A stretch of DNA of 64,000 nucleotides from Climacium dendroides (taxonomy: Eukaryota; Streptophyta; Bryopsida; Hypnales; Climaciaceae): assembly GCA_950106755.1 (NCBI GenBank), contig OX467088.1, positions 2,154,001-2,218,000 of the forward strand, read 5' to 3'. This document shows positions 27,401 to 62,139 of the stretch, in pieces; the stretch's first letter is position 1, and each line of letters starts with the position of its first letter. The translations under genes were made by a program, and so were the position numbers. The notes under the pieces are model-generated. The model had not been told where the DNA came from. It did no database searches and saw only the letters and a program-made list of their open reading frames with translations.

Positions 27401-30400
27401 CTACGGATTAGACCGAGCCGGATTGGTCATTCCACCGATCCGGTTGATGAAATCTCCCCTGACTTGTTGTCCTGGAACCTTGAATGTTCCAGTCATCAGA
27501 TTCGGCATTGTTTGTGCCTTGGGAACTTCCGGAGTTGAGAACTTAGATGGCACCGAAACCGTTTTCGCGCTAGACTCCGGTTCCGGGTCCGGTGTCGTAG
27601 CACAGAGTAAGTAAATTCCCTGTTATATCCTCAAAAATCACCCTAGAGCATAACAAAATGACCCTAAAGATCGAATCCACGAGATCCTGTGAAGTAGCTA
27701 ACTCTATTAAGGAGATAAACCCAATAAAACCCTTCAATTCTACTTTCCGGTTGTACCTCGGAAAACCGGAATGTCCAAACTCCAACCGGAAAACTAAGAC
27801 CGGACTGTATCCTATTTCCAGTTTTACTAGTTTCCCGATCTCTGGTCAACTTCTCAATTCTGGACCATTCTACTTCCGGTCCTAAGTGTCTACGGAGCGG
27901 ATCTGTTCTGGTCCGTCCTTCTAACCCCGGTTTAGTTTTGCCTCTGTTTTACCATCAGAGGGTTCGCCGCTTGCCTTTGAAAGTGGTCGGCCCACCACTT
28001 CTTCCGTGACTTATAGTGGCTGAAGACCCACTTCTTATCTTCCTATCCTCCTACTCTAATCCGGATCCGGTTTGGTCCTTCACAGCAATTCGGATGGCAA
28101 TCCGAATCACAGGTCACACAAAGACCCCCCGTACGATCCTCTCATACTACAACGACTTTGATGTTGATCCGTTTCGTACAAGTTTCGGTGACTACAAGTG
28201 CACCTGTCCGTTCCATCAACTATAGAAGTTCTTCCGTTTTACCCACAACGGGGGCAAGACCTCACAGGAGTCAGGACACTCGACCGGATTTCCCACCCAG
28301 GAATTCTAGCGCAGCTAAGGAATCCCTCCCTATCCGCCTAGCCTAATCAACGGCTTTCTTACCCGGAATACTAAACTTCTACAGATGCTAAGGCACTGGA
28401 ATCCACTTCTAGCTCTTCATGACCTACTCAGATGTACTTAGGACCGGAAACATTCATCAAAGGGAGAACTCTACCTACACATCCGTGCATACCACCTTAC
28501 TTCAACTTTGTACATTCTTGCCAACACTCCGGAGGAATACACAAAACAAAGTCAATGGAAAATACACAAGGAAATGCCAAAAGAACTCTCCCAGTCTCTA
28601 GCTCAGAGACTGTTTTATATACAAAAAGCAAAAAGCAAAAAGTGAATACATGATTTCCGCCTCTGAAGGCGCTGACAATCCGCTCCTACCTTATCCTAAC
28701 CAGATTCTATTCCGGTTCCTATTTATAAGTCCTATTTTTACAATCCTTTCTGTTCCGTTTCATACACTCGGGATCCAATGGTTGGGCTCTCATCAGGTCT
28801 CTCCAACTGCTCGAAAACCTCAGTTAGATTCCGGTTCCGTTCCCCATCCGTAGGTAGAACCGGATGTTCTTCTTCAGCTTCTGGGGAGTCCAAATCTATC
28901 GGCTGATGTCCGGTCGAGGGCGTCTCCTTCTTTGCCCTGCTTGACTGGGGCGTCTTGTCCTTTCCCGGCTCCTGAGCGGCGTCTTCCGGAAACAAGTCCG
29001 GAAGTGAAATCTCAGAGAGCCGGATCGGAATCTCCGTCAATTTCTGGCTGCTCTCCACGATTCGGTCCGCCGACTCCCGTGCTTTAGATAGGAGCTTCTC
29101 TATCTGCTCCTCAAAATCCGTGAGGATGTGCACCACCCTGGTTCCGGATATCTTCTTGTCCTTGTGCACCTCCTCTTTGAACAGGCGTGCCTTGGTGACT
29201 GCTGCTCCAGGTCCTCCAAGCACGTCCTTCACTTCCGCGGCCAACTTCTTCATTTCCTCTGCCATCTCCTTTGTCGCGTTGGCGTTCTCAAGCAACGCGA
29301 ATAGTTCGGCCTTGAGGGTGTCCACCTCATCGTGCTGCCGCTTGCTGTCCTCCTTCATCTTCCGGAGCTCTTCCGGATTGAACACACACTTAGCCACCTT
29401 CTGTGGCAACTGGCTGTCCGGTTCCGCTCCGATTAATTCTGCGATCTCCCCGAGCGTTCGCTTCTTAACTTCCCAATCCGCCCGGATTCCACAGAGGATC
29501 CCAACCAACTCATCGAATGGATCTGCGGTTCCGGATCCAGATGCCACATCCGGTTCGATTGGAGTCTCACTTCTGTGCGGCCGCGGATGTCTCGAGGGCG
29601 TTCCTCGATTTCCAGCCGGTGTGGTCTTCTGCCTCTTGGCGGGAATATACGGTTCCTCCTCTTCCTCTTCTTCTTCTTCTTCCTCCTTGGTTTCGTTCCG
29701 GAATCCACTTCTTGGTCGGACTCGGATTCTCCGTACTTCATGGTCCGCTCTTGGGCCTTCCATACCTTCAACTCCACTTCCGTCAGCAGCTCCTGTTGCT
29801 GATAGAGGTGGTAAACGTAAGGGCACAGTGGGGTAGCCTTACTTTTCCCCACTCGTGTAGTAAGCTGGGATACCAGATCAAAGAAGATCCGGCCCCAGTC
29901 TACTTTCCGGGTTCCGCTCAGCGCTCCGAAAATCGTATTGGCCAAGGTGATAGTCACCCTGGTGGGCTTTTCCGGATGCAAAACCGGAACCAGGAACTGG
30001 AGCAAGCGTTGCTCCCGGTCATCGAGGCAGTCTTCGACTGCGTAGCCATCCTTCGGGTTTACTACGCTTCCAAACTTGCCCTGGACGAAATCGTCCTTCC
30101 GGTTGGCCAGTCCGAGTCCTCCTGGTCGGAACCCGTATACGTTCCGCCACAAAGCCTCGGTCCATTGGACCGGATTCCCTCTCAGGGTGTTATCGAACTG
30201 ATTCGATACGCCACTCAGGATTTCTCTAACCATCCTCTCATCTTTGAAACCCCAAGGTTTCAAAGCTAACCCCTGACAACCCATCAATGACAAATCCTCT
30301 CCGAGCTCTCCCTGTTCCGGTTCCTTGGTCGGCATGACTAGAACTACTTTTCTAAGCTTAACTTCACTCGGGGGCGGAGTGTTAGAACCTCTCTTCCGGT

Positions 30401-32498
30401 TCAGCCGCGGCATGAGGGTAGCCCTACCCGGTTTTCACTCTACAGTTCTAACAAGGGAGCGCTGACACTCAGATGTTCCGCTCCGCCTGTAAACTATCCT
30501 ACTGGCATACTCACACTCTTAGCTTCTCACGTATCTGCTCTCACTCAAGGTCTCACCCACTCATGTCCGGAGGAGATCTCTTCGTCTCACACCCCTCTCT
30601 CGCTTCTAGACCCTCTTGTACTTCCTCTTCCTGGCCGTGGTCAACGATAGAAACGCCAGGCGCTAAATCAGGTCATGACAACACGTGGAAATCCAGAGAC
30701 CTGAAAATGGGCAGGGCCAGGCTTTATATAGTCCTGACGCCCTGGACTGCCTTTATGACCGGTTGGGTATCCGGTCCGGTTCTTGACATCCGGTTATCTC
30801 CAATCCGGTCAGCAAGATTCCGGTCGGAAATACTTATCCGGTTGTACATCTAATTCGTTCCGCTTCAACCTAAAACCGGATTAGTTCCGTAAGGTCCTTT
30901 TGTGACTATTTTTGGATTTTATTCTTCTCTCTAGATGAATCCGGATACCTATTTCTAATTTCCGGTTCGCTCAAAAAGGTAAACAAATAAAAATCAAAAA
31001 CATGAGTTGCCACATCCGGTTCCGAGGCTGGCCTCAAATTCAACTCTGTCATCTGTATCTTACTGGCGGAAGGCTCGGCTGGTGTGAGTATCCCCCTTAG
31101 GTCCTCCATCCGGGTTGCCTGATCCGCCACTGGTTTCCCGGGGGTACCTGCGACAAAAGGAAGTTCCGGAAAGGTGGAGAAATCCATCGCATGGTTTGGG
31201 GCGATGGCCGCCAGCAACTTCTGAATCTCCTTGAAAATTCGCTCTATCCTCGTGGTGAAGTCTACGAGGATGGTAACTACCTTCGTTCCAGTAATGTGGC
31301 CTTCTGATATCATCTTTGAGTCAAACAAAGCAGGTTTCGTGATGATGTCGGCTTTGATGTTGACTGCTCTGGTTAGATTCTTGACCAAAGCGAGAGCCTT
31401 TTTCTCTTTCTCCTTCGCAGCTACCATTTCCCCTTCCGCCCAATTCACCCGGGTCTGGAGTAGGTTCCGTTCCGCCTCCAACTCCTGGATCCGATCCTCC
31501 CTCTTCTTTAGATCCTCCGGCTTCGGTAGTTGTTTGACAGCTTCCACGATCTGATCCGGATCCACCTTCAATACTTCCGCGGTATCTATCACCAAGTCTG
31601 ACAACCCGTCGTGAAGTACCTTGGCTTCACGTATCCACTCGAGCCCCGCATTGAAAAATGCGGATTCTGTCTCCATTTCAGGTCCTCTACTGGACTCCCC
31701 CTCCTCCATTGTCGGTGGCTTGATTCTCGACCCCGGATCGGTTGACTTCCTCTTCTTGGTCCTCGGATCTGTCAGACGTTCCTCGGGAAGTTCCTCTAGT
31801 TCAGACTCGACCGGATCTTCCGCTTCCTCCCCGGAAAGTCCGTATGACAAGAACGTCTTTCCGGTGTCATACTTAATTATTTCCGCCGCATTCAAAAGTT
31901 CTTGTTGATGGTACAGATGAAACAAATAGGTGCTAACTGGACTCGCCTTCGCTCGGGTCACGTGATCCGCTAATTTAGCCACTATTCCGGCTATGATCCT
32001 ACCCAAGTGCACTACCCGGTTCTCCATAGCCCCAAAGATGGTATTGGCCACCGTGATGGTAACCTGCGTTGGCTTTTCCGGATACAAGATCGGAATTAGA
32101 AACTCTAGTATCCGCCTATGTCTCTCGTCCTTGCACTCGCTGATAGCGAATCCGTCCTTAGGATTTGTAGACCCCGTGAACTTCCCAGCTATAAAACAGT
32201 CCGTCTTCGATGCTAAACTGTTCCCACTCTTCCGGAACTGATAGACGTCCGCCCAGATGTCCTCGGTCCACGCGACTGGCCGTCCTCTCAAAGTGAGCTT
32301 GTACTGGTTCGGAACACCGTGAAGTAGCTCTTGAATCATCTCTTCACTCTTGAGGTTCCATGGTCGGTGTAGTAAACCGACACATCCTAACCTAGTCAAG
32401 TCCTCCTCTAAATGCTTGTATAGTTCCGGGCTATCCGGAATGGCCAGAGAGATAACTCGGGCAGATACCGCTACCTTCTGTACTGGTCCGGATGCCAT
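27401..32498 (-). CDS. LTR-encoded protein of element B (3' LTR copy), interrupted only by a solo LTR
   Basis: Pieces: 32498-31015 and 27592-27401. Apart from the inserted LTR (with its 5-bp duplication) the frame is open for about 556 codons. Residues ~20-200 form the domain shared with families A and C: LGCVGLLHRPWNLKSEEM, LTLRGRPVAWTEDIWADVYQF, NPKDGFAISECKDERHRRIL, YPEKPTQVTITVANTIFGA, LYHQQELLNAA. Then come an acidic linker, a basic NLS-like TKKRKST, a predicted coiled coil (KKREDRIQELEAERNLLQT), and a short block (GHITGTKVVTILVDF) also found in family A. No Gag, Pol or Env motif. The N-terminal domain faintly recalls the plant Transposase_32-type domain (weak inference). The TAG at 27401-27403 is shared by both LTRs; the same frame stays open to 27116 beyond it. 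Confidence 0.65.
27593..31014 (-). mobile_element. Solo LTR of family A inside element B 3' LTR
   Basis: The 3422-bp LTR has ends TGTCGTAGCAC (27593) and ...GTTGCCACA (31014) and exact TCCGG duplications (27588-27592, 31015-31019). The uninterrupted target is present in the other LTR of element B near 52995-53010. No internal region adjoins. TATA boxes in reverse lie at 30723-30730 and 28613-28621, as in element A. Confidence 0.92.
28738..30413 (-). pseudogene. LTR-encoded protein of family A, best-preserved copy (one frameshift)
   Basis: The ATG at 30413 opens a frame of about 558 codons ending at 28738, broken only by a 1-nt loss near 29698 just before the poly-Glu tract (two overlapping frames, 30413-29433 and 29826-28738). 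Order: residues ~30-215, the domain shared with B and C (LMGCQGLALKPWGFKDERM, NPKDGYAVEDCLDDREQRLL, HPEKPTRVTITLANTIFGA, VYHLYQQQELLTE); an acidic run of ~11 Glu; NLS-like PAKRQK; coiled coil (ELRKMKEDSKRQHDEVDTL); the block ISGTRVVHILTDFEEQIEKL; and a Pro/Glu tail. It lacks the premature stops of the element A copies and ends past their TGA (SRVYETEQKGL). Function unknown; a nuclear role is guessed from the basic cluster. Confidence 0.7.
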
Positions 32499-32918
32499 AA
32501 TCTAAGTGAGAACGAGGAAAAGTAGTTCTACCTCAGTCGCTAACTCACTACTCTTTCTCTTAACTACTCACACAAACAATCTCAGGAACACCGAACAGAA
32601 AAAGTGAAGAGGAAACCCTAGGAAGACAGCTTAAGTACTAACCCGTCTTTCTACGGTCTTAAGGACAACGGCTACAGGTTCGTTGTCTCAATGGTATCCT
32701 ACTTCCGTAGCTACGAGACCTATACAATAGGTTCCTGTATTCCGGATGAGTCCGGATTCCGGATCTGAATAAGTTCCGGTTTAGGGTTGTGCTGGAACGC
32801 TTATTTTCTAATTTAAGCTATCTAGTCCAAAAAATCACACTCTAACTATAATTTTTTTATTTATTTTTATTTTTCGCACCTACTTCTTGTGTTATTGATC
32901 CGTTTCCGGATTCCCACA

Positions 32919-32930
32919 TTACCCCTTTTT
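32919..32930 (-). other. Polypurine tract of element B
   Basis: Read on the minus strand it is aaaaaggggtaa directly before the 3' LTR start TGTGGGAATCC, the expected plus-strand primer site. Element A has the equivalent gaggagggggtaa at 48186-48198. Confidence 0.75.
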
Positions 32931-32983
32931 CAACTGTGAGAGTCCCCGCGAACATCCTCATCTTCGTCTTGGGAATCCGACTC

Positions 32984-35900
32984 CTATACGTACGTTTTGA
33001 CCCGGGATTTATTCACCTTTGTGTCCATCCACACCCCTTGAAGATCTTTCAGTTGAATGGATCCATTAGAGAATAACTGTTGTACCCTATATAGGCCCAT
33101 CCATCTGGTGTGAAGTTTTCCTGGAAAAATCTGGTAACGGCTATCATACAATAGAACTAACTCCCCTTCCTTGATCCCGTGATTGGTTGGTAATTTCTTG
33201 TCATGATCTGCCTTTCTTTTTTCTTGTACTCTCTTCGTGTGATCGAGGGCCACCAATCTTGCCTCCTCCAAATCTTCAATGGCCATCAGCCGGATGTCCG
33301 GATCGCTGGTCCGGATAGCGTTCCGGGTCGACATCACCCGGTGTGATTCTACCTCCAATTCTATCCTATGGGTGGTCTCCTGTCCAAATACCAGAAAGAA
33401 TGGACTTCTCCCAGTGGTAGTCTTCTGTGAGGTGTTGTATGCATGGACTGCCGATGGAAGTTTCAAATCCCAATCCGTCTTGTGCTTAGAGATGGTTTTG
33501 TTCAAAACCTTTTCTACTACTCCATTGGCTCGTTCCGTCAAACCGTTGGCCCTTGGGTTATAAGGAGTGGTCTTCCGGTGGGTGATCAGATATCTCTTGG
33601 TAATATTCTGAATGGTATCATTCAGGAAATGGAGTCCTCGATCACTCACTAACTCTAGTGGGTGTCCAAATCTCATCAGAATTTCTGTGAACAGGAATGA
33701 TGCTGCAGTCTGGGCGAAACTATTTCGGGTAGCCTGTGCTTCCACCCATTTGGTGGCATAATCCGTCGCCAAGATGATATACTTCTTTCTTCTAGTTGTA
33801 ACTGGAGAAATGGGACCTATGAAATCTATTCCCCACTTCTCAAAGGGGGCGATAGGCATGATTGGAACGAGTGGCCAATGGTTCTGGAAGGAAGGAGCCC
33901 CCATTTGTTGACATTGGTCACAGCTCCCCACATGCTTCTTGACATCCCGGATCAGATATGGCCACCAATATCCGGCTGCTCGGATCCGGTTCACAGTGGT
34001 GATAGCTGCAAAATGTCCTCCAGAAGGTCCGGAATGCAAGGCTCGCATTATCTTCTTCTGGTCCTTTGTTTCCACGCATCGCCTTAGCTGATCATCCGCT
34101 CCCATTTTGAATAAGGTTCCCTTAATCAATGAGTAAGGGCCAACCTTATGGTAGAACATAATTTTCTCCTCCCTATTTAACCCTTCCGGATATCTCCCAT
34201 CTACAAGGAAATCGATGATGTCTTGGTAATCCGATCGAGTTCCTGCTTGTAGGTGGAACAGGGATTCTTCCGGAATTTTCGGAAAGTCATCTGGGAATTC
34301 TGCGGAAATGTCTTCAAGTGAAGTCGGTCCCCTAATTCTAGAGAGGTAGTCCGCATTTGCATTTGACTTTCCAGAATTCACTTTTACTTCATAATTGAAT
34401 TCTTGGAGCAATAACACCCATCTTGCTATTCTTCCGGAAAGGTCAGGTTTGTTTACCAGATACTTGAGTGAATCATGATCCGTGTGGAATATTACTCGAT
34501 ACCCAAGCAGGTAATGCCGGAACTTCTTGCATGCATAGACCACTGCCAACGCTTCCCGCACCGTGGTGGTGTACTTCCTTTCCGCCAAGCTCATTTGTTT
34601 GCTGGAGTAGTAAATGGGGCATTCTCTCTGGTGACTGTCGTGTTGCTAGAGAATTGCTCCTAAACACCATCCGGAAGCATCTAGGGTAACATGAAATTCC
34701 TTAGTCCAATCCGGTGAAGACAAAATAGGGGCCTTGACTAACGCTGATTTCAACATCTCAAAAGCTTCTTGTCGTTTCGCATTCCACACATACTCAGTAT
34801 CCCTTTTTAGTAGTTCCGTAAGTGGAGTAGCCTTTTGGGCATATCCGTCTATAAATCTCCGATAATACCCTATACAACCAAGGAATCCTCGGATCTCTCG
34901 TACACAAGTTGGAGCAGAAAGGGTGAGTATGGCTTTGACCTTGTCCAGGTCTACCTCTAACCCTTTCCGACTAACCACATGTCCTAAGAGGATTTCGGAT
35001 TCCATTCCGAAAAAGCACTTTCCGGGATGCAATTTGAGATTTGTCTCTCTGCATCTCTGAAAGGTTTTCCGCAGGTATTCCAAGTGCGCTTCTTTGGAAC
35101 TGTAGATAGCAAAGTCATCGATGAACACCTCTAGGAAGTGACGTAGAAAATCCTGGAAGATGTCTATGATGAGTCGTTGGAAAGTTCCGGGGGCATTGCA
35201 TAACCCGAAGGGCATCCGGGTGAATGCAAAGGTTCCCCATTCCGTCGTGAAGGTGGTCTTCAGCTGGTCTAATAACCAGATGAAAACTTGGTTGTATCCG
35301 GAGAAGCCATCAAGGAAGCTGTAACACTCATTTCCGGAAACTTGATCAAGAATGATGTTCGTAAAAGGAAGCGGAAAGTAGTCTTTCCGAGTTGCATCAT
35401 TTAATTTCCGGAAGTCTTGGCATACCCAAATCTTGATCTTTCCTCCTGGGCCTGGTTTCTTTGGAACGACAACAATGGGTGAAACCCATTCTGAATTGAG
35501 GACTGGGTAAATAAACCCGACTTCTAACAAGGCGTCAATTTCCTCCTTCACCATCAAAGAGTATCTTGGGTTTAACCTGTGCTGTCGCTGGCATACCGGA
35601 ACCGCTCCTTCGACAAGGTCGATCCGGTGTTCTCCTAGTTCTGCTGGTAACCCACTAAGGTCGGAGGGTGCCCAAGCAAAGACATCGAGCTATTCTTCTA
35701 GAAGCTTCTTGTATTTAGCTTTCTCTGGAACAGACATTGCTTTGTTAATAAAGAAAGTTTTTCCAATGGTAACACTCACCTCCTCATACTCCACTGGGCT
35801 TACTATAGGTTTCCTCCTTTCTGGCTCTGGTCCATCTTTCTCGTTTCGTAACTCGCTCCAGACGGATTCTTGATTTATTCGACCCAGTCCTACCGTTGGA

Positions 35901-37069
35901 AAATTCTCTTCGTTGAGCTATCGTTTGATCCATTCATATGATAACGGAACGCTCATTTCTCCCAATGACCGATCTTCCGGTATTGTTGGTGTCGGGGTTT
36001 CTACTTCTTCCGTTGCAATTTCCAAGATGGGTTCTGGAAATTCAAAATCTGGTTCTATAACAGACGTGAAGTAACTAGTCACAGAATCAGAGTTCTCCTG
36101 ATCAGACCAGTCCGTAGTATATCCATCAGACTCACTAGTCTCTCCTAAGTGATCAACATGTTTCCAAGGTATCCGTATGGCAGGTTTCCCCACCACAAAC
36201 TCCTTGGCTCCCCAGTCAACCAGCACTTTTGCTGCATATAACCATGGTCTTCCTAGTAGCATGGGAAAAGGCCTTCCCTTAGATACTCTGATGACTACAT
36301 AATTTAGTAGATAAGTCTCTCTTCCGATTCGGGTTGGAATCCGGGCCAACCTTCCTACCGGATACACTCTTGATTGATCTGCCATCCTCAAGACTTGGTC
36401 AGTTTCTTGGAATGTCGTGTATCCTAGATCAAAGGCGGTGTCTTCCAACATTAGGTTGACTCCCGATTCACCATCAACTGGAACCCGAGTGACCGTACAT
36501 CCTCCTACTTCAACTTCCAACTTTGGCGCTCCAAAGTCTTCGATCTGGGAGAAGTTGACTGCGACTGACGGAAGTTTGAGTCGTCTGTTTCTCTTCTTTG
36601 TCCAAGCGTCTCGGATCAATCTCTGATAATTTGCATTATCATGAAGGAGTTGCCCGAAGGTGACACTAGCTTTCTGATCTTTGATATCTTGCACGATGTC
36701 GTATGTATCTAAGTTTGGTACTGGATTGATCAGAACCGGAACATCCTCAAATGTAACCTTCTTCTTTCTAGGATCTGGAATCACACCGATATTGTCCAGA
36801 TTCTGTCGTACTTCCGAACTAATGTCAATGGGAATCAGAAGAGGTCCGACCCCTTTTTCTACTTCTACTGTAGGTCTTATAGGATCCGTTTCCTCCGTGT
36901 GATCAGAATCACTCAGATCGGATTCTAGAATGGGAATACTCCCCTGAGGCTTTTCTTTTCGTCTCTGCCTTCTAGTTCTATGCCTATCCCTTTGGTCTTT
37001 GGTGGAACTTCGAGTTGATACTCGATGAACAAGTCTCTCTAAAACTTTTGGAAGTTCCACCTTTGGTTG
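32984..37069 (-). pseudogene. Element B pol: protease, reverse transcriptase, RNase H, integrase
   Basis: One frame throughout. Protease: VPVDGESGVNLML (36460 region; the usual D-S/T-G is altered). RT (35560-34750): PIVVVPKKPGPGG, QDFRKLN, FPLPFTNIILDQV, TRMPFGLCNAPGTFQR, catalytic FIDDFAIYS. RNase H: VTLDASGWCLG, VREAL, HTDHDSLKYL. Integrase: HSGPSGGH with CDQCQ (zinc site), KWGIDFIGP, LVSDRGLHF, NGLTERANG (D, D, E). No chromodomain follows; the C-terminus is short. Stops: TAG 35918-35920 and 34646-34648 (the latter for TGG), both C-to-T type, and TAG 35690-35692 for an expected Tyr codon. The RT box IDDF recalls Athila-type elements. Confidence 0.88.
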
Positions 37070-38668
37070 TCATTTTTCCGTATTCTCAATTCCGGCAGTG
37101 GATCCGTAATTGAGTCCGGTTTGGTCACGAGGTGGGACTTCTACGTGTTTGTAAATAGTATGGATCTGTTGCGGCCTGGGACACTCATTCATTCCATGTC
37201 CATATTCTAAACAATTCTGGCATGGTAACGCTAGAGGGGCCCCTTGCCCCTGCCCTTTATGGGAATAGCTATTGGCATAATGTTGGGGACTTCTACACAC
37301 GAAACAACACTCGGGTGGGAATCTAAAAGTAGAATAAGTACCTTGACTAGATCCAGTCGGTGGATGCGTATGAAAATTGGTGCAGATCAACTGCTGAGGT
37401 GCTTTCCCTCTTCCGTATCCGGTTTGGATCTAGAATACTGGATTCACCGGATCTTCACACCCCTCCGGTTCCGGAAGTGTGTAGTACACTCCTTCTTCAT
37501 CCACAAAATGGATCTGCTTCTGATGTCCCTAGGGACATTCGCTTGCATAATGACCGGGTCTTCCACACCTTACGCACCATACATTAGCTCGGGAAGTCGG
37601 TACAATCCGTCGAGGCATCCGATTATCAACGAGGTTGACCTTGATTGCCTCCAAAGATTCTTGGATGCTTTTCATAAGTTTCTTGGAATCATCCTCCTCC
37701 ACCTTCACCTTGACGGTTCTTCTGTTAACCTTCTCGTTTTTGCCTCGCGCCACTCGTCGGATGCTAGAAGTCTCTACCTCACTATCCGAACTGTTGGCGC
37801 TGTCGGATGACTCGTCCGATCCGGTTCCGGAACTTGAGGTTTAGGAGTCCAAATACCTCCCTCTTCGCTTCATCTTCTTCTCGTACTTCTTCCCTTTCTC
37901 TCTTTTCTCACTCTTCTTAATGGACTATCGTAATGATTGAGCTGAGTTCTCGTAATTTTGGGCTGACTCCATGGCTTCTCTTAGCTTTGCGGGTCGGGAC
38001 TGTCGGATCTGAAAACCCATCTCCTCCGGAAACCCTGCCACATACCATTCCACTTGTATACTCAGGGCTACGTCCGTGGTTAGTTTCTTGATCAGGTCTT
38101 TTACCCTCTAACCGTATTTTCGGACCGACTTGTTGGGTCTCATGGAGACTTTACTAAGTCTGCCCAAAGTTCTAGCTTCTCCTCCTACTTCTCTAAAGGT
38201 CCGCAGGAAGAGTTCCGTCAGACGGTCCCAGTTGTTCCGGGTACCTTCCGAAACATCTTGATACCATCTAAGGGCTTCACCTTTTAGTAGTCCCTGAAAA
38301 ATTCTCTGTCTGGAAGCGGCATCTTCTTGATTAGCTACAGTAGTAGCCTCAAATTCCCCCATCCAATCGTCTACATCCTTACTACCGTCTCCCCGAAACC
38401 TACTATAACGGAGACGTGTGGTGGTCACCATGATATCTAGTTCGTCAGGGAATCGTTCCTCCTCAGAAGTAACTGGTTCCGCTTCTGGTTCCTCAACCGC
38501 TTCAGGACTTTGAGAACGTTCCGGAAGTACTTCCGGCCTAGGAGGAATTATAACCAGATCCTCTATGGACTGTGACGTTGGTAACTTGTGCACCACTATT
38601 CGCCTATTTTCTTCCTCTTGACGTTTCGTCCGACGTAAAGCTCTATTTCTTCTTTGAGGCCTACTCAT
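37070..38668 (-). pseudogene. Element B gag
   Basis: ATG 38668 (MSRPQRRNRALRR) opens Gag, with the capsid-like retrotransposon gag domain at 38420-38110 (FRGDGSKDVDDWMGEFE, RIFQGLLKGEALRWYQD). It reaches zinc knuckles: CVRCGRPGHYASEC intact, CFVCRSPQHYANSY with the last Cys lost, CQNCLEYGHGMNEC intact. Stops inside include TAG 38108-38110 where CAG is expected from element A, a stop near 37921, and TAG 37529-37531. The final TGA (37070-37072) falls at the same codon as in element A and is probably the true Gag end. Gag packages the element RNA into particles. Confidence 0.82.
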
Positions 38669-38813
38669 GAAGTTAGAATCAAATTCTCATTCACTGGGCC
38701 CTCATTTACTTAGTCCTATGGCTGAGTCCTAGCTTACCGTCCTGAACTACCTCTTTTTTTATTTTTATTTTTTATTTTTTTTCTTCTACTCTATCGATAA
38801 GTTATTCAGTAGT

Positions 38814-38831
38814 TCCCCGGCAGCGGCGCCA
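38814..38831 (-). other. Primer-binding site of element B (tRNA-Asp)
   Basis: Minus strand TGGCGCCGCTGCCGGGGA lies 4 nt from the 5' LTR end. It differs by one base from the element A site, which is the complement of a plant tRNA-Asp 3' end. Confidence 0.85.
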
Positions 38832-39243
38832 AAAGTGTCGTACGCATAGTTAGCTGTAAGTATCCTAACGACAGCAAATTGTTGCAAGATGACACGAATT
38901 ATCGGTCCAGGGAACTTCTAGTATGATATCGATTGAGTTAGAAGCATCAAAGGGTCCGCTGTGACAACTCATATTTTTAATTTTTATTTGTTTACCTTTT
39001 TGAGCGAACCGGAAATTAGAAATAGGTATCCGGATTCATCTAGAGAGAAAAATAAAATCCAAAAATAGTCACAAAAGGACCTTATGGAACTAATCCGGTT
39101 TTAGGCAGAAGCGGAACGGATTAGATGCACAATCGGATAAGTATTTCCGATCGGAATCTTGCTGACCGGATTGGAGATAACCGGATGTCAAGAACCGGAC
39201 CGGATATCCGACCGGTCATAAAGACAGTCTAGGGCGTCAGGAC

Positions 39244-39251
39244 TATATAAA
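39244..39251 (+). promoter_or_regulatory. First TATA box of the family A LTR
   Basis: TATATAAA in gactatataaagcctggccc, about 320 bp before the LTR gene start. Conserved in all inner family A LTRs: 48483-48490, 56061-56068, and reversed at 30723-30730. Probably drives the LTR gene. Confidence 0.65.
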
Positions 39252-48162: not shown

Positions 48163-48198
48163 TGTTCGCGGGGACGCTCACAGATGAGGAGGGGGTAA

Positions 48199-51100: not shown

Positions 51101-51629
51101 TTGTGTGACCTGTGATCCGGATTGCCATCCGGATTGCTGTGAAGGACCAAACCGGATCCGGATTAGAGTAGGAGGATAGGAAGATAGGAAGTGGGTCTTC
51201 AGCCACTATAAGTCACGGAAGGAGTGGTGGGCCTACTACTTTCAAAAGCAAGCGGTGAACCCTCTGATGGTAAAACAGAGGTAAAATTAAACCGGGGTTA
51301 GGAAGGGTGGATCGGAACAGATCCGCTCCGTAGACACTTAGGAACAGAAATAGAATGGTCCAGAATTGAGAAGTTAGCCAGAAACCGTGGAACTAGTAAA
51401 CCGGAAATAGGATACAGTCTGGTCTTAGTTTTCTGGTTGGGTTTTGGACATTCCGGTTTTCCGAGGTACAACCAGAAAGTAGAAGTGAAGGATTTTATTG
51501 GATTTATCTCCTTAATAGAGTTAGCTACTTCACAGGATCTCGTGGGTTCGATCTTTAGGGTCATTTTGTTATGCTCTAGGGTGATTTTTGAGGGTATAAC
51601 AGGGAATTTACTTACTCTGTGCTACGACA
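48199..51629 (+). repeat. Element A 3' LTR (3431 bp)
   Basis: Follows gaggagggggtaa (48186-48198). TATA boxes at 48483-48490 and 50599-50607 flank the LTR gene. Compared with the 5' LTR it keeps an 11-bp duplication (ccatccggatt, near 51125). Confidence 0.95.
48803..50452 (+). pseudogene. LTR-encoded protein of element A, 3' LTR copy
   Basis: Same 550-codon frame as the 5' copy, sharing its TAG (49454-49456) and final TGA. An extra TAG at 49883-49885 stands where the 5' LTR has CAG. So the shared stops were present before this insertion, while the extra one arose after it. Confidence 0.7.
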
Positions 51630-52814
51630 TCCGCCCTTGATATAGAAAGGGGTGGGGACTCACCACTTGTACAATTATCTTCTGTATACTCTAAATCTAC
51701 TAAACAACACACCCAAGACAACACAGTTGTAGGAGGAGGGAGGAGTATTCTCTCATAGTCTCCGGATTGGCCGATCCGGAATCAGGTTACATAGAGCAAT
51801 TCTCACACCTCTCTTTACTACAACGACGGATCCGAACTCATAGATCCAAAGGAATAGAGTTTCAAAGGAAAGACTATGTACTAGGGGGGAGGTTGGTAGA
51901 CCTTCCGAAGTAGCGGGAGTTCCTTTCCTTTGGTGGTTGCTTATCTCCGCATAGAACCCTCCTGGTTCTGGACTCGTAGGGACCTCTACCTTCTTATCCG
52001 GATTGCCGTTCCGGCAATTTAAAGGCACATCACACTTACACTCCCTTACTCAATTCGCATCTCTCCCACTCAGCTCAACACCAAGAGATCCGTAGCTCAA
52101 GATCCGGATTCCTCCTCTCTCTCCCTTATCTTTCTCTAGTACAAGGATACAATCATACATGCATACACTGAGCCAAAGATTCTGTCTAAGCAAAGTACAG
52201 CTAGAAGCACCTTGACTGACTTAGATTAAGAAAAAGAAATTGTAATACATATGTGAAAGCACTAAGGTCGAATGGAATAGAATGGAATGGCAGACAACTA
52301 ACTTGTCTGCCCTTAAAAACTAACACAAAAACCCAAAGTCAACCCCTAAAAGCCTAAAAAGGAAACCCGGAAATCCAAGCAACCAATCATTGAAAACCCT
52401 GGGATATCCGAAAAGATTGCTAACTGCCGTCCGAGATAACCAGATTCCTTATTATCCGCCTAAGATTTCGGAAACCGGATTCATGCTTGGAACCCTATTC
52501 CAGACCCTATACTTCTTTTCCTACCAACCCTAATGTCTTGGCTTCCGTCCTATCTTTGAACGGCTCCCCGCTTGGCTGGTAGGCGTCCCCTTCGTATTCT
52601 TTGCTGGTGTGGTCTTTGCTGTGGCCCGAGTCTGGATATGACGCGTTGCGGGTGACGGATCGCTGTCGTCTTCGGTTCCGGAAGTGGAGTGGGCACTCTC
52701 TTCCTCAGAATCTTCGATGACTTGAACTTCCTCCTCCTTCTTTGGTGTGGTATCCTCCAATGTTGCGAGTTTGCTTCTTTCCTCCGGCGTGGTTTCCTGC
52801 ATGTGCACAAATCC

Positions 52815-54485
52815 CTACGGATTAGACCGAGCCGGATTAGTCATTCCACCGATCCGGTTGATGAGATCTCCCCTGACTTGTTGTCGTGGAACCTTGAATG
52901 TTCCAGTCATCAGATTCGGCATTGTTTGTGCCTTGGGAACTTCCGGAGTTGAGAACTTAGATGGCACCGAAACCGTTTTCGCGCTAGACTCCGGTTCCGG
53001 GTCCGGTTCCGAGGCTGGCCTCAAATTCAACTCTATCATCCGTATCTTACTGGCGGAAGGCTCGGCTGGTGTGAGTATCCCCCTCAGGTCCTCCATCCGG
53101 GTTGCCTGATCCGCCACTGGTTTCCCTGGGGTACCTGCGACAAAAGGAAGTTCCAGAAAGGTGGAGAAATCCATCGCATGGTTTGGGGCGATGGCCGCCA
53201 GCAACTTCTGAATCTCCTTGAAAATTCGCTCTATCCTCGTGGTGAAGTCTACGAGGATGGTAACTACCTTCGTTCCAGTAATGTGGCCTTTTGATATCAT
53301 CTTTGAGTCAAACAAAGCAGGTTTCGTGATGATGTCGGCTTTGATGTTGACTGCTCTGGTTAGATTCTTGACCAAAGCGAGAGCCTCTTTCTCTTTCTCC
53401 TTCGCAGCTACCATTTCCCCTTTCGCCCAATTCACCCGGGTCTAGAGTAGGTTCCATTCCACCTCCAACTCCTGGATCCGATCCTCCCTCTTCTTTAGAT
53501 CCTCCGGCTTCGGTAGTTGTTTGACAGCTTCCACGATCTGATCCGGATCCACCTTCAATACTTCCGCGGTATCTATCACCAAGTCTGACAACCCGTCGTG
53601 AAGTACCTTGGCTTCACGTATCCACTCGAGCCCCGCATTGAAAAATGCGGATTCTGTCTCCATTTCAGGTCCTCTACTAGACTCCCCCTCCTCCATTGTC
53701 GGTGGCTTGATTCTCGACCTCGGATCGGTTGACTTCCTCTTCTTGGTCCTCGGATCTGTCAGACGTTCCTCGGGAAGTTCCTCTAGTTCAGACTCGACCG
53801 GATGTTCCGCTTCCTCCCCGGAAAGTCCGTATGACAAGAGCGTCTTTCCGGTGTCATACTTAATTATTTCCGCCGCATTCAAAAGTTCTTGTTGATGGTA
53901 CAGATGAAACAAATAGGTGCTAACTGGACTCGCCTTCGCTCGGGTCACGTGATCCGCTAATTTAGCCACTATTCCGGCTATGATCCTACCCAAGTGCACT
54001 ACCCGGTTCTCCGTAGCCCCAAAGATGGTATTGGCCACCGTAATGGTAACCCGCGTTGGCTTTTCCGGATACAAGATCGGAATTAGAAACTCTAGTATCC
54101 GCCTATGTCTCTCGTCCTTGCACTCGCTGATAGCGAATCCGTCCTTAGGGTTTGTAGACCCCGTGAACTTCCCAGCTACAAAACAGTCCGTCTTCGATGC
54201 TAAACCGTTCCCACTCTTCCGGAACTGATAGACGTCCGCCCAGATGTCCTTGGTCCACGCGACTGGCCGTCCTCTCAAAGTGAGCTTGTACTGGTTCGGA
54301 ACACCGTGAAGTAGCTCTTGAATCATCTCTTCACTCTTGAGGTTCCATGGTCGGTGTAGTAAACCGACACATCCTAACCTAGTCAAGTCCTCCTCTAAAT
54401 GCTTGTGTAGTTCCGGGCTATCCGGAATGGCCGGAGAGATAACCCGGGCAGATACCGCTACCTTCTGTACTGGTCCGGATGCCAT
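52815..54485 (-). pseudogene. LTR-encoded protein of element B, 5' LTR copy
   Basis: 556 codons from ATG 54485 in one frame, with one internal stop: TAG at 53442-53444, where the 3' LTR copy has CAG. Domain order as in the other copy: shared N-terminal domain, acidic linker, NLS-like TKKRKST, coiled coil, GHITGTKVVTILVDF block, Pro/Ser tail. The final TAG (52815-52817) is common to both LTRs; the same frame is open beyond it to 52530 with an acidic, Thr/Lys-rich stretch, so the ancestral protein may have been ~95 residues longer. Confidence 0.68.
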
Positions 54486-55777
54486 AATCTAAGTGAGAAC
54501 GAGGAAAAGTAGTTCTACCTCAGTCGCTAACTCACCACTCTTTCTCTCAACTACTCACACAAACAATCTCAGGAACAGCGAACAGAAAAAGTAAAGAGGA
54601 TACCCTAGGAAGACAGCTTAAGTACTAACCCGTCTTTCTACGGTCTTAAGGACAACGGCTACAGGTTCGTTGTCTCAACGGTATCCTACTTCCGTAGCTA
54701 CGAGACCTATACGGTAGGTTCCTGTGTTCCGGATGAGTCCGGATTCCGGATCCGAATAAGTTCCGGTTTAGGGTTGTGCTGGAATGCTTATTTTCTAATT
54801 CAAGCTATCTGGTCCAAAAAATCACACTCTAACTATAATTTTTTTATTTTTTTCTATTTTTCGCACCTACATCTTGTGTTATTGATCCGTTTCCGGATTC
54901 CGGATTCCCACACTCCCTCATCTTGGTCTGGAATGCTTCCATCCATTTCGCTTGTTCTAACAAGCATTTGACAATAGGGACCCGGCTTGAGCTAGCGACT
55001 GCATCGAGGTTGGCTTCAAACAACCGGGCCTTGTTAATATAATCCGCTGGTACGTCCTAAGAGCTCCAGAGCCGAACTATTCCTTGACACAGGGCCGCTA
55101 TCTGCCGGCGATGGTCCTCTTCTGTGAGCCGGGCCGTTTCCTAGGCTGTGCGGAGAGTGCTCTCAAAATCTACACATCTGGATTTTGAGTCCCGGACTTG
55201 GTCCCGCAATGTCCGGTTCACGACGCGCAACGTTCCCAGCTCCGTCACCAACTTCTTCCATTCTTTGATGAGGAGGTCGTTTTGTTGTTCCACCGTTATC
55301 AGAGCATCCGTCCTCCGGAAGATGGCATTCCGATCGGTTAGTGCCATCTTCTAGCACACCCGGTTGAGAGCTCCATCATAGTTCTCGTAGATCTGGGTGA
55401 AGTCATCCGCTCGCCCCACCGGGTGTTGAGCCATCTCTTGGATGTCTTCCAGAGGTGTCCCTCCCAACTGCATGGTGGTCCGATCTCCCTCCTCTATCTC
55501 TATCCTCCTAGTTCTGGAGGGTCCGGCCTCGGCTTGAGTGGCCACAGTGTGCGGTCGTACCGGCCCCACCAGTTGCATGGAAGGTCGGACGTCTTCCGGA
55601 GTTGGTCCGGTCTCCATCTTCTACTCCGGAACTTCTTCTTGTAGCTCCGGTGCGGTAGGCTCCTCTAACAGATTCCCCAGCAGCGGTGCCAAAATCATCT
55701 TTTCCTCTTCTTTAGAGGAGAGGACGGCTGCTCGTCTTCCGTCTCCTCATCGTCTGGTCCATCTCGAGGCGAGGGCT

Positions 55778-58700
55778 TGTGACAATTCATATTTTTGATT
55801 TTCTTCGTTTACCTTTTTAAGTGGAACGGAAATTAGAAATAGGTATCCGAATCCATCTAAAAGGAGAGAGATAAATCAAAAATAGTCACAAAAGGACCTT
55901 ACGGAACTAATCCGGTTTTAGGTAGAAGCGGATCGGATTAAATTTTCAACCGGAATGGATTTTTAACCGGATTCTCCTTGACCGGATTGGAGAGAACCGG
56001 ATGTCAAGAACCGGACCGGATATCCGACCAGTCATAATGACCAGTCCAGGGCGTCAGGACTATATAAAGCCTGGCCCTGCCTATTTTCAGGTCTCTGGCT
56101 TTCACGTGTTGTCGTTTCCTGTCTTAGCGCCTGAAGCTTTTCTGTCTACGACAGCGAGGAGGGAGAGTACAAGAACTCCCATTAGTGAGTGAGAGGTGTG
56201 AGACGAAGAGATCGCCTCTGGGCGCGAGTGAGCGGAAGAGTGTGAGCGCGCAAGGAGGGTGGTTTGCAGGTGGAGCGGAAGAATGTAAGCGCTCCCTTGT
56301 TAAGTCAGTAGAGAGTGAAATTGGGTAGAACCGCCCTCATGCCGCGGTTGAACCGGAAGAGACTAGGCTCTAGCACCCCGCCCCCGAGTGAAGTAAAGCT
56401 GAGGAAGGTAGTTCCGGTCATGCCGACCAAGGAACCGGAACAAGGAGAACTCAGGGAGGACATAGCGTCCATGGGTTGTCAGGGATTAGCCTTGAAACCT
56501 TGGGGTTTCAAAGATGAGGGAATGATTAGGGAGATCCTGAGTGGTGTATCGAACCAATTCGATAACACCTTGAGAAGGAATCTAGTCCAGTGGACCGAGG
56601 ATTTGTGGCGAGACGTATATGGATTCCGGACGGGAAGACTCGGGCTTGCCGACCGGAAGGATGATTTCATCCACGGCAAGTTCGGAAGTGTCGTGAATCC
56701 GAAGGATGGCTACGCGGTAGAGGACTGTATCGATGACCAGGAGCGTCACCTGCTGCAGTTCCTTGTTCCAGTTTTGCATCCGAAAAAGCCCACCAGGTTG
56801 ACCATTACCCTGGGTAATACAATCTTCGGAGCGCTGAGCGAAAACCGAAGAGTAGACTAGGGCCGGATCTTTTTCGATTTGGTGTACCAGCTTACTACAA
56901 GAGTGGGAAGAAGTAGGGCTACCCTACTGTGTCCTTACGTGTACCACCTCTACCAGCAACAGGAGCCGTTGACTGAAGGGGAGCTGAAGGTTTGGAAGGC
57001 CTAAGAGCAGACCATGAAGTATGGTGAATCCGAGTCCGACCAAGAAGCGGATTTTGGAAACGAAACCGAGGAGGAGGAAGAAGAAGAGGAAGAGGAGGAA
57101 CCGTAGTTCACCTCCAAGAGGCAGAAGACCACGCCGACTCAGAATCGAAGAACGCCTCCGGTTCACCCACGGCCGCACAAAGAGCAGGCTTCAACCGGAC
57201 CGGATGTGCCGTCCGGATCGGGAACCGGAGATCCGTTCGACGAGTTGGTTGGGATACTTTGCGGAATTCGGGCGGATTGGAAAATCAAGAAGCAGACGAT
57301 CAAGGAGATCGCGGAATTGATTGGAGCGGAACCAGACAGTCAACTGCCACAGCGGGTAGCTGAGAGTGTCATCAATCCAGATGAGCTCCGGAAGATGAAG
57401 GTGGAAAGCAAGGCGGCAGCATGATGAGGTTGACACCCTCAAAGCTGAGCTTTTCACCTTGCTCGAGAACGCCACCACGACAAAGGAGATGGCGGAGGAA
57501 ATGAAGAAGCTGGCCGCGGAGGTGAAGGATGTGCTTGGAGAATCCGAAGCCGTGATCACCAAGGCACGCCTGTTCAAAGAGGAGGTGCACAAGAAAAAGA
57601 AGATATCCGGAACGAGAGTGGTACACATCCTCACCGATTTTGAAGAGCAGATGGAGAAGCTCCTGTCCAAGGCCCGGGAGTCAGCGGATTGGATCGTGGA
57701 GAGCAGCTAGAAGTTGACAGAGATTTCGGTCCGGCTCTCTGAACTTTCACTTCCGGACTTGTTTCCGGAAGAGGCAGCTCAGAAACTAGGAAAAGACAAG
57801 ACACCCCAGTTAAGCAGGGCACAGAAGAAGACGCCCTCGATCGGACCGCAACCGATCGACTTAGACTCCCCGGAAACTGATGAAGATTGCCCGGCTCCAC
57901 CTCCGGATGAGGAACGGAACCGAAACTTGACTGAGGTATTCGAACAGTTAGAGAGACCTGATGAAAGTCCTACCATCGGATCTCGAGTATACGAGGCAAA
58001 ATAGGAAGTGTTGTAGAAGTAGGAGTTATAAAGCAGGAACCGGATTGATAGAGTATGAACCGGAATAGAATCCGGTTAGGATAAGGTAGGACCGGATTGT
58101 CAGCGCCTTCAGAGGTGGAAATCGTGTAATCACTTTTTGTTTTTTGCTTTTTGTATATAAAACAGTCTCTGAGTTGGAGACTAGGGGAGTTCTTTTGGCA
58201 TTTCTTGGTGTACCTTCCATTGATCCGGATTTGTGTGTTTTTCCCGAGTATTGGCAAGAGTACACAATGTTGGAGTAAGGGGGTATGTACGGGTGTGTTG
58301 GTAGAGTTCTCTCTTTGATGTGTCTTTCCGGTTCTAAGTACATGTGAATGGATCATCAAGAGTTAGGAGTGGATTCCAGATCCTCAGCATCTGCAAAAAC
58401 TTTGCATTCCGGATAAGAAAGCCGTTGATTAGGCTAGGTGGATAGGGAGGGATTCCTTAGCTGCGCTAGAACTCCTGGGTGGGAAATCCGGTTGAGTATC
58501 CTGACTCCTGTGAAGTCTTGCCACCGTTGTTGGTAAATGGAAGAGCTTGGTAGAAGTTGGAACGGATGGATGCACTTGTAGCCACCTAACTTTGTACAGA
58601 ACAGATTCAACATCAAGGTCGTTGTAGCATGGAAGGATCGTATAGGGGGGTCTTTGTGTGACCTGTGATCCGGATTGCCATCCGGATTGCTGTGAAAGAC

Positions 58701-59181
58701 CAAACCGGATCCTAGTTAGTTAGGGGATCAGCGGATAGGAGAGTGGGTCTTCAGCCACTATAAGTCATGGAAGGAGTGGTGGGCCTACTACTTTCAAAAG
58801 CAAGCGGCGACCCCTCTGATAGTAAAATAGAGGCAAAACTAAACCGGGTACGGAAGGGTGGACCGGAACGGATCCGCCCAGGAAGACACTTAGGACCGGA
58901 AGTTGTAAAGTCCTGAGTTGGGAAGTTAGTCAATGAACCGGAAAACTAGTGAAACCAGAATTAGTATAAATGCTGGTCGTAATTTTTCGGTGGGTTTTTG
59001 GATGTTCCGGTTTCAGAGGTAAAACCGAAAGTTAGAATTTAAGGGTTAATTGGGTTTAGTTCCTTGTTAGGGTTAGCTACTTCATAGGATCTCGTGGGTT
59101 TGATCTTTAGGGTCATTTTGTTATGCTCTAGAGTGATTTTTGTGAGTATAATAGGGAAATTGCTTACTCTGTGCTGCGACA
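55778..59181 (+). mobile_element. Solo LTR of family A inside the layer 3 family C LTR
   Basis: 3404 bp, ends TGTGACAATTC and CTGCGACA, with exact GGGCT duplications (55773-55777, 59182-59186). It is more divergent from element A than the element A LTRs are from each other. TATA boxes at 56061-56068 and 58154-58162. Confidence 0.92.
56339..58004 (+). pseudogene. LTR-encoded protein of family A, copy in solo LTR
   Basis: Starts MPRLNRKRLGSSTPPPSE at 56339, homologous to 39564. Stops: TAG 56858-56860 (TGG expected), TAA near 57002, TAG at 57105 and 57708, and a frameshift near 57412-57425. The shared domain (MGCQGLALKPWGFKDEGM, NPKDGYAVEDCIDDQERHLL) and the coiled-coil part (57459-57710) remain clear. 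It ends SRVYEAK at 58004, supporting the longer C-terminus over the TGA of element A. Confidence 0.65.
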
Positions 59182-62139
59182 GGGCTCTTCTCCCCCGTAC
59201 TGCTGGAGTTGGACTAGGTCTTGATATGCACTCTCCTCGTTGGCCTTGAGCAGAGAGTGATGAGCGTACAGATGAGACAGGTATGTCAGAAGAAGAATCT
59301 GACTCTTCTTTCCGGATCAGAGGGAACATACCAAGTCTTCGACTAGCTCATGGATGATGGCCACCCAATCCATCATCATTTTCCCTTGGAGGCTCCCCAA
59401 GATGGCGGAGGCCACCTTCGCTACTACTCGCGGTGGCTTGGTGGGATGGAGGATAGGGTTAAGAAACGCTATCACATCCCGATACTCCGGATTCACTAGG
59501 TCGGAAACCTGGTGACCTTCCTTCGGGTTGGCGGGCGCCCGGAATTCGCCCTCCATCACCCCCTGGGTTTTCTCCATAACCTTGTCCGGTGCCTCTCGGA
59601 ACTTGTAAACTGCCCTCTAGGTGTTCACCGTCCAGAGGTCTGGCTTCGCTCGGATGGTGGTATCCAAGATGCCACTTTCCGGTCGAAGGATGTCAAACAC
59701 GAGACTCTCCTCACGGATCCCCCACGGCACCTCCAGGAGTCCGTCACACCCCATGTTGGTGAGGTTCTCCCGCAGGCGCCCCAACCAATCCTCCTCTGTC
59801 GGAATCTCCGGAACTACCTTCATCACCGGAATAGTCCTTGGCCGGGGCACCGGTGGCGGCATCTCGTCCTCCGAGTCCTCAGGCAGATCCTTCAACTTCC
59901 GCTGGCTTGCCCTAGAAGTCATCGTGCTCACAAGCAGCCCTCACACAGTTTCTCCTCAACTCTCTGCTCACAAACTTTCACTCTAGTAACCCCTGCACGA
60001 TCGCAACTTACACAGTCCCTCAATTTACCGGAATTCTAACAAAGCTAGGAAGACGAAATACACCGGCAGAAGAACAAACAAAGAGATATGCGTGTCCACT
60101 GCCAGCTACAGTCCCCCTCTTTTACTGGCCCAATGTACGAGACAGGTTTTGGCGGCAAAATCCTAGTACGGATCTGGTTTCCAGTTTTTAGGGACGGCAC
60201 CGTCATCCGATTTTCGTAACTTTCGAAGGTTCCGGAATTAGGTTTTTAGCCCTAATGAAATTTTTCCGGATCCGGAAATCCGGTTTTCCGAAATTGCCCT
60301 CACTTCCTAGGAGAACTCGAAAACTTTCCTTTTGAAGGAGACAATTTTTGAATTTTTTCCGTCATATGCTAGTATTATGGGTCTAGCATGTGGAATCACA
60401 TTCCCACACTCTGAAATTCCTTGGAAGTACCGGCGGACTGCATCAACAAAGCCCGGCTGTTCGAGACCAACTTCGATGCAGCCGCCAGCTCGAGTCGGGT
60501 ACACATCATCAAGTGTTTGTTGGAGCAAGTGAGACGGATGGACGCCTCCCGAGCAGATATGTGGGATATGATGGCTTATCTAGCTCCCGCTGAGTCAGAT
60601 CTATTCACTCTTTCTTCCCTTTCCGCTCAAACTTTGGTGGTTCCGGAAGGTAATGATCCGGAACCCATTGTTACAATAGTATTATTGGTGGTACCGGCTA
60701 GTCCGGAACTTTCACCACGGCCCGGAAGGCCGGAAGGAGTGGATTGGGGTGCCGTGGTACCCCAAGGAAGCGAAGACCTCCTTCCGGTGACCCCAATCAT
60801 TGACCTTATGGGTACTCCTCCGGAGACTCAAGAGGGCCAGGCGATACAATCTTTCTCCGTCATAAAAAGACCCAGAAGGATTCTCGGGGAAGTCCGAAAG
60901 TTCCAATAGTTGGAACCCAAAGTGTAGATAGGGACATCAACATCGTGGAAGTCCTGAGATGGAGAGCAAGGTGTCCGGATGTGTTTTCTCCAGGGAGTAG
61001 CCGGAAGTAGATCAATCTAGACTCGTTGAAGAACCTTGCTCCTCCCACAGATAAGGATCTCGAGGAATAGTGTGCAGTAGTATAGAGTAGCAACAATACC
61101 GGAGTCTGACCGTCAAAAGCCGGAAAAATAGGATCTAGGATTTACCGGAAATCTAGCAGACCAGTAGGAATGTTTGGTGGGATTTTTAGGATGATGTTAA
61201 TTTTAGTATAAGTTGGGTTTTTGATGGACCTTTCTAGTCATTCACATCCGTCCCATAGTTTCAGCTTGTATCTTTTTGAGCTTAATCCAAGTGTTTGGAA
61301 GTGTCCATTCTCTTATCTTTTGTATTCGGTACATGCTTGTGGGGTGTGTGGGTCCATTCTTGCTTTTTCGGACGCTTAGAACTTACCTTGAGTAGCAAGA
61401 GTCGACTTTGTGAGTGGTTTCCGGGTGTCACCTACTTGATGGGGAGATCGACCGGATTGTTCCGACAGTAGTGTTAGTGTACTATCGCCTAGATGCCGAT
61501 ATAGCCTGAGGGTAAGATACGGCCTTAGGTGAAAGGATATTTGAGAGGCTGCTAGCAACTTCTGTGTACGGGAGTTTGCAAGACGTGCCCGAATTCTGAA
61601 TTGCCGGAATTCCCCATAGATGGAATAAAAGCCCCGGCGCAACGCCCAAGAGAGTACAAGGATATCCACCCGGTCGATGGAAGGCTTAGTGTCCGGCTAA
61701 TGTTAGAATGTCGTTGTAGTCCTTAACTGTCCCTGCGTGACCTGGTCTGGTAAGCATTCCGGATCTGTGAGGTGATAGAAAAGTAGGACACTTTTGGTCC
61801 CTGAAGTGTTAGTTTAGCATTAGTATTAGAGGTAGAGAGAGAGCGTGTTTCTAGATGCACTACAACAAAAGCAATGTTTTATGACTGCAAAATATGACTG
61901 CAGTGAGTCGTAAAATCAAAATATACGACTCACGCAGAAATCACTGTAGATGACTCGGAATATGATTGACTCCAATCGTTTAGAAGCAGTCGCTTCAAAC
62001 ATCAGTCATATTGGCAGTCATATTTTCCGAGGGGTATAAATACCCATTTTTAGCCATAGTATGCCAACATGGCGTATACTTTGACTTTTCTAGGGGAGTC
62101 TTGACTTTTTCTTGAGTTGTCCGAGCAAACAAAAAAATC

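Follow-up and report, generated by a model that had tools for sequence, protein, structure and literature searches.

In a 64,000-nucleotide stretch of Climacium dendroides DNA (contig OX467088.1, positions 2,154,001 to 2,218,000; the window hereafter) we studied a long open reading frame (ORF) that lies in the long terminal repeats (LTRs) of three retrotransposon families, here called A, B and C. On balance, we consider it probable that Athila-like Ty3/gypsy elements carry this frame as a genuine accessory gene, which entered the LTR by a shift of the LTR boundary and whose product would act in trans. Two full-length elements and four solo LTRs of the window have the frame entirely within the LTR, and purifying selection preserved it in the A and C lineages that went on replicating. 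Judged from the translations, the frame encodes one predicted protein family in three diverged element families.

The frame is present in eight LTR copies, none of which is fully intact:

39564..41213, plus strand: copy A1, one in-frame stop
48803..50452, plus strand: copy A2, two stops, the first in common with A1
28738..30413, minus strand: copy of the solo A LTR, one frameshift
56339..58004, plus strand: copy A′, several breaks
27401..32498, minus strand: copy B-left, 494 and 62 stop-free codons, split by the insertion of solo A
52815..54485, minus strand: copy B-right, one internal stop that is not in B-left
25652..59922, minus strand: copy C#1, three pieces, several breaks
22900..60909, plus strand: copy C#2, split by C#1, several breaks; its start is that of an earlier reading of this DNA (the sequence-only reading)

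In LTR coordinates the A frame extends from 605 to 2254 of 3420, while it starts about 430 bases into the B LTR and 486 bases into the C#1 LTR. An open stretch that continues B-right down to 52530 resembles the longer C-terminus of the relative P0004. Taking as an LTR gene a frame that occurs in both LTRs of one full-length element, A1/A2 and B-left/B-right are two such cases. The sequence-only reading had proposed that the frame is doubled in each element and kept in solo LTRs; both statements hold, given these two pairs and the four solo LTRs. Its placement of the frames in LTRs rather than in internal regions is likewise borne out by the paired copies in full-length A and B, the solo LTRs with target-site duplications (TSDs), the LTR termini, the primer-binding site (PBS) and the polypurine tract (PPT).

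Homology between the families was assessed using a cross-family profile of 93 outside homologs, from which the three window rows had been left out, and which was run on 1600 six-frame fragments of the window. The profile matched B-left (E value 1.7e-163), B-right, solo A, A1, A2 and A′. It also matched C, with E values of 5.4e-25 and 1.7e-16 in C#1 and of 1.3e-13 and 4.2e-11 in C#2. The best match of a reversed control had an E value of 0.0014 and was located in the coiled coil, such that C-terminal matches near that value carry little weight. The earlier claim that the N-terminal domain is homologous across A, B and C is thus confirmed far beyond chance. Outside the window the family is large: a search with a B piece of 347 residues found 119 of 2220 candidates related at E ≤ 0.001, and with a 36-row profile 780 of the 7997 candidates scored passed the same threshold, 120 of them listed. 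The relatives examined have a layout in common, consisting of an N-terminal domain, a charged (acidic) linker, a helical and coiled-coil part and a disordered tail, with a conserved stretch of the helical part preceding the tail. Long intact relatives exist in the databases. Between A and B the LTR protein is 48% identical in the N-terminal part (198 residues) and 32% in the C-terminal part (69 residues), compared to 78% (303 residues, reverse transcriptase (RT) part) and 69% (535 residues, RNase H and integrase part) for the pol protein. The LTR protein therefore evolves faster than pol.

Plain Nei-Gojobori ratios of nonsynonymous to synonymous change were 0.15–0.20 between A lineages and 0.08–0.36 in the C coding pieces. 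We judged these values to be biased, since the ratio was 0.37 for A1/A2, a pair that can have diverged only after a single insertion, and 0.47 and 0.62 for noncoding stretches of C. In a spectrum-corrected null each observed change was placed anew at random, 1000 times, on sites matching it in base and CpG class. The corrected ratio (omega) was 0.60–0.69 for A1/A2 (25 changes and one stop), where 158 and 218 of 1000 simulations in the two directions reached the synonymous count, and 1.48 for B-left/B-right (24 changes and one stop), where 867 of 1000 did so. The two LTRs of one element thus did not depart from neutrality in either pair. Between lineages the corrected omega was lower, with 0.32–0.33 for A1 against solo A, 0.30–0.35 for A or solo A against A′, and 0.26, 0.47, 0.40 and 0.61 for the four C pieces. 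None of 1000 simulations attained the observed synonymous count in any of the five A comparisons or in two of the C pieces; in the other two C pieces 1 and 8 of 1000 did. In agreement with this, A1 and A′ differ at 27% of third codon positions compared to 12% and 9% at the other two. Low omega between lineages together with neutral LTR pairs indicates that replicating elements needed the frame, while inserted copies drift. As B offers only its own LTR pair, selection on it rests on protein conservation. The proposal of selection made from the sequence alone therefore stands within A and within C (corrected omega 0.26–0.61), whereas between the families it stands only as conservation at the protein level.

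None of five frame pieces had a Pfam match at E ≤ 1. Precomputed Pfam annotation was absent from all 119 listed relatives of the B-piece search and present in 2 of the 120 listed relatives of the 36-row profile search, in both cases as PF03999. An hmmscan of 36 members at E ≤ 5 returned 28 families, each in at most two members. Among the 25 of these that were listed no extra-ORF domain was found at the sequence level, Athila ORF-1, the plant mobile domain and Transposase_28 included. For the B piece AlphaFold2 predicted a helical domain with blocks of pLDDT 90–98 over residues 11–220 (mean 86.0, pTM 0.65), and for a long relative the same helical domain plus long helices. Foldseek searches against PDB and the viral BFVD gave nothing at E ≤ 0.001.

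The position of the frame becomes apparent from the internal genes of the elements:

42390..42407, plus strand: PBS-like stretch TGGCGCCGTTGCCGGGGA, directly behind the A 5′ LTR
42715..43560, plus strand: A gag (Retrotrans_gag)
44548..48162, plus strand: A pol (RT, RNase H, integrase)
48183..48198, plus strand: PPT-like stretch of A, directly before the A 3′ LTR
32984..37060, minus strand: B pol region, three open pieces; RT, RNase H and integrase by Pfam in two of them

The third B piece is without a clear Pfam match, and its DNA partly aligns to the start of A pol. B likewise has a PBS-like stretch right after its 5′ LTR and a PPT-like stretch just before its 3′ LTR. The domains of A pol follow each other as RVT_1, RT_RNaseH, Integrase_H2C2 and rve, which is the Ty3/gypsy order RT-RNase H-integrase; a chromodomain and a second RNase H were not found in A pol by the Pfam scan. 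An additional RNase H is a mark of Tat elements. The PBS-like stretch TGGCGCCGTTGCCGGGGA may be of tRNA-Asp type, the PBS type of the Athila lineage. From the pol stop to the 3′ LTR there are 36 bp in A and 65 bp in B, too little for a further internal ORF downstream of pol. In plant elements such additional ORFs are most often located between pol and the 3′ LTR (PMC7264820). In A and B the ORF is found within the LTR instead, and for this reason we call the elements Athila-like rather than filing them as typical Athila members. The 3′ LTR copy of the frame nevertheless follows pol, the usual place of such ORFs in plants, with or without a promoter role of the TATA-like box described below (PMC7264820).

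The likeliest origin would be a displacement of the LTR's 5′ edge to the PPT right behind pol. An extra ORF of the type found between pol and the 3′ LTR in other plant elements would thereby have become part of the LTR, and reverse transcription would then duplicate it into both LTRs. For A, two conserved stretches point to a possible transcription unit around the frame:

39244..39251, plus strand: TATA-like TATATAAA, A LTR position 285, upstream of the frame
41347..41379, plus strand: second conserved block with TATATAAAAC, LTR 2388–2420, 33 bp, behind the frame

The TATATAAA box lies inside a 40-bp block (LTR 266–305) that is identical in solo A and A′. If it serves as a promoter, each A LTR would comprise promoter plus gene; the TATATAAAAC block may be a poly(A) region or a promoter of the genomic RNA. 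As the TATA box precedes the start codon by 320 bp and the frame is followed by a conserved block, the A LTR could form a small transcription unit, and solo LTRs would thereby retain promoter plus gene. The longest noncoding identical run measures 47 bp (LTR 101–147) and is separate from both box blocks; the null for the longest such run has its median at 27 bp and its 95% point at 38 bp. Three TATAWA strings were found per A LTR where about 1.9 are expected by chance. As a guess about function, a soluble protein composed of helical domain, acidic linker and coiled coil might regulate the element family in trans, perhaps at (A/T)CCGG(A/T) sites, and would act neither as envelope nor as enzyme.

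These sites crowd the elements. CCGG occurs at 6.8–18.2 per kb in 15 of 15 stretches of A, B and C and at 4.1 per kb in the tail of a cut LTR end (D), compared to 0.8 per kb in the 21.4-kb flank (1–21400), where the G+C content is 37% as against 46–55% in the elements. A or T stands on both sides of 208 of 298 sites, and the density is common to families whose noncoding LTR DNA hardly aligns. A first-order null predicts roughly 2–6 per kb. Under a second-order null 40.9 sites are expected for 48 observed in the A LTR, 67.8 for 77 in the A internal region and 34.8 for 43 in the B internal region. When synonymous codons were shuffled, the excess reached z values of 7.0 in A pol, 4.7 in A gag and 4.6 in the first B pol piece (pol1), with none of 500 shuffles attaining the observed count. 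It was attained by 13–15 of 500 shuffles for both A1 LTR frame pieces and the second B pol piece (pol2), and by 36, 124 and 130 of 500 for the remaining three pieces; z was 1.0–2.2 in four LTR frame pieces and two of the three B pol pieces. Of 30 A pol sites that align to B, 9 are kept there (23% for all 4-mers), and 9 of 25 B sites are kept in A. Between the LTRs of A and A′ 26 of 48 sites are kept, and 26 of 41 in reverse, with 50% for all 4-mers. The crowding is possibly caused by a target of the LTR protein, by a host factor site or by mutation.

An anti-silencing factor resembling VANC, which would bind the repeated (A/T)CCGG(A/T) motif and strip full-length and solo copies of their silencing marks in trans, appears rather unlikely to us. 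VANC does bind a repeated short motif (PMC5735166, PMC10398659), and the high density in all element stretches compared to the flank, the excess over codon shuffles in A pol, A gag and pol1, and the density kept in A and B despite turnover of single sites would all suit such a factor. The CCGG sites, however, extend across coding and noncoding parts while VANC targets noncoding DNA (PMC10398659), and no Pfam annotation is common to both proteins. In addition, z is weak in the LTR frame pieces and two of the B pol pieces, little excess is left over the second-order null, conservation from A to A′ is near the level of all 4-mers, and G+C is lower in the flank. The motif could also stem from a host factor or from mutation bias, and a tie between protein and motif is conjecture. 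A stronger version would make every LTR, also one left alone, an independent gene for a sequence-specific factor from an undescribed protein family. This factor would recognise the (A/T)CCGG(A/T) sites that crowd all parts of its element family and would counter silencing or drive expression of the family in trans; in our estimate this version has a low probability.

A structural helper of Gag or RNA, e.g. a protein of the particle or of packaging that any LTR could supply in trans, would make use of the coiled coil and the predicted well-folded helical domain, and selection at the level of replicating lineages agrees with it. No Gag or capsid family was among the listed Pfam matches and no PDB fold match was significant, and we regard this role, too, as fairly improbable. 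Even less is to be said for an envelope-like ORF displaced into the LTR and acting in membranes, which we hold to be very unlikely. The frame does follow right behind pol and the PPT, the usual site of envelope-like ORFs in plants (PMC7264820). But no membrane segment is predicted: among 86 homologs of at least 470 residues (out of 211) none has a 19-residue window above a Kyte-Doolittle hydropathy of 1.6 (maximum 1.48), and the protein is therefore not envelope-like; it has an acidic linker and a coiled coil instead, and lacks Pfam annotation as Athila ORF-1. That the LTRs carry a neutral open frame devoid of function would match the finding that all eight window copies are broken or split. 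Such a frame is refuted for the A and C lineages by the corrected omega of 0.26–0.61 between lineages as against neutral LTR pairs, and long intact relatives exist in the databases; this explanation is thus extremely improbable.

The accessory-gene reading itself has to contend with several observations. Both LTRs of full-length A share a stop (40215–40217 and 49454–49456), and therefore the A copy that inserted already carried a truncated frame. A strict need for the LTR protein in cis is thus unlikely, although the protein could have been supplied in trans or the stop could have been born during reverse transcription. The 40-bp TATA block barely exceeds the 38-bp point of the null and the 33-bp TATATAAAAC block does not reach it, and neither the clear TATA box of A nor the pair of boxes was found in B or C. 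Most of the CCGG excess is gone under the second-order null, because CCG and CGG are themselves frequent. Finally, the nuclear role on which the sequence-only reading speculated did not gain support, as clusters resembling nuclear localisation signals in residues 200–340 occur in 18 of the 86 long homologs compared to 26 of 86 after shuffling.

Genes in LTRs are known from retroviruses, namely sag of mouse mammary tumour virus (MMTV) and nef of human immunodeficiency virus (HIV), which are LTR/U3 genes. As here, they are accessory genes that follow the last main gene in the genomic RNA and occur in both proviral LTRs (nef partly). The frame studied here differs in belonging to a plant-type retrotransposon, in having no known protein relation to them and in its larger size (~550–650 codons). 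With Athila-lineage and other plant elements that carry an ORF behind pol (PMC6317226, PMC7264820) the elements have in common the gag-pol order, the chromodomain and second RNase H not being found, and a fast-evolving extra ORF in sense direction behind pol. They differ from Athila-lineage elements in that the LTR contains the ORF, which is thereby doubled and has no Pfam Athila ORF-1 annotation. Rice Retrosat2 likewise has very long LTRs, in excess of 3.2 kb, along with an additional ORF whose function is unclear, but this ORF0 is internal and upstream of gag-pol (PMC3485330), and the element is grouped with the chromoviruses (Tekay/Del) (PMC6317226). An additional ORF is also mentioned for sunflower Tekay elements (PMC12844716). 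The VANC protein of VANDAL transposons (PMC5735166, PMC10398659) is likewise an accessory protein encoded by an element whose DNA is crowded with a short motif. VANDAL is, however, not an LTR element, no sequence relation was detected by Pfam annotation, and DNA binding of the LTR protein is conjectural. In the excerpts of open-access literature that were searched, the combination seen here was not found: a gene under selection within an Athila-like LTR whose product belongs to a large protein family without a shared domain annotation.

A gene in the LTR escapes the usual loss of retrotransposon genes: recombination between LTRs deletes gag and pol but leaves promoter and gene. If solo LTRs express the protein, supposedly dead scars would be a source of an active element-encoded protein in plant genomes, and if they further act as stand-alone factor genes, solo LTRs derived from recombination would keep serving the surviving full-length copies. 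The protein family is large in public data and has no shared domain annotation. Genomes and RNA data that already exist would allow the claim to be examined.

The LTR assignments derive from the anatomy of the region, which was obtained from self-comparison and boundary letters. From 21.4 kb to the end of the window the DNA consists of stacked insertions of Ty3/gypsy elements, comprising a full-length A, a full-length B, four solo LTRs and the cut LTR end D. The coordinates of the sequence-only reading agree with this anatomy once nesting is allowed for.

38960..51629, plus strand: full-length element A, TSD TCCGC, in the 5′ LTR of B
38960..42379, plus strand: A 5′ LTR, 3420 bp
48199..51629, plus strand: A 3′ LTR
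27593..31014, minus strand: solo A LTR, TSD TCCGG, inside the B-left LTR and the B-left frame
55778..59181, plus strand: solo A′ LTR, TSD GGGCT, within C#1, about 82% identical to A
25939..54912, minus strand: full-length element B, TSD CTCCC; its LTRs hold solo A and full A
24341..60408, minus strand: C#1 solo LTR, about 3.7 kb, interrupted by A′ and B, flanks CTCTA/CTCTG
22390..63947, plus strand: C#2 solo LTR, interrupted by C#1, flanks CAAAA/GAAAA

From the outside inwards, D is cut by C#2, C#2 by C#1, and C#1 by A′ and B; the innermost layer is formed by solo A in the left and full A in the right LTR of B. The B LTRs accordingly span 25939–32918 (interrupted by solo A) and 38836–54912 (interrupted by full A). 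The LTR pair of A is 98.0% identical. LTRs end in TG..CA, and A, solo A, A′ and B are flanked by 5-bp duplications. A full-length C element is absent from the window; the status of C as an LTR is based on two copies that end alike, terminate in TG..CA and each have 5-bp flanks that differ at one position.

D is the 3′ end of a further A-like LTR (21412–22389, minus strand), the remainder of which would fall beyond the window. C#2 contains about 1.8 kb of extra repeat-rich DNA at 61852–63652, with tandem repeats of 30–68 bp period and no CCGG. Near the 3′ end of the LTR a 65-bp noncoding block (26190–26253, 27938–28000 and the corresponding A/A′ stretch) is common to A, A′ and B at 74–82% identity. 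It is the sole noncoding match between A and B LTRs displayed by the search, and its predicted folds were no better than those of shuffled sequences. Outside the nest, the 214 bp at 20599–20812 match their own reverse complement at 98%, and the flank holds a direct repeat of about 750 bp (5975–6706 and 14302–15058) with 69% identity.

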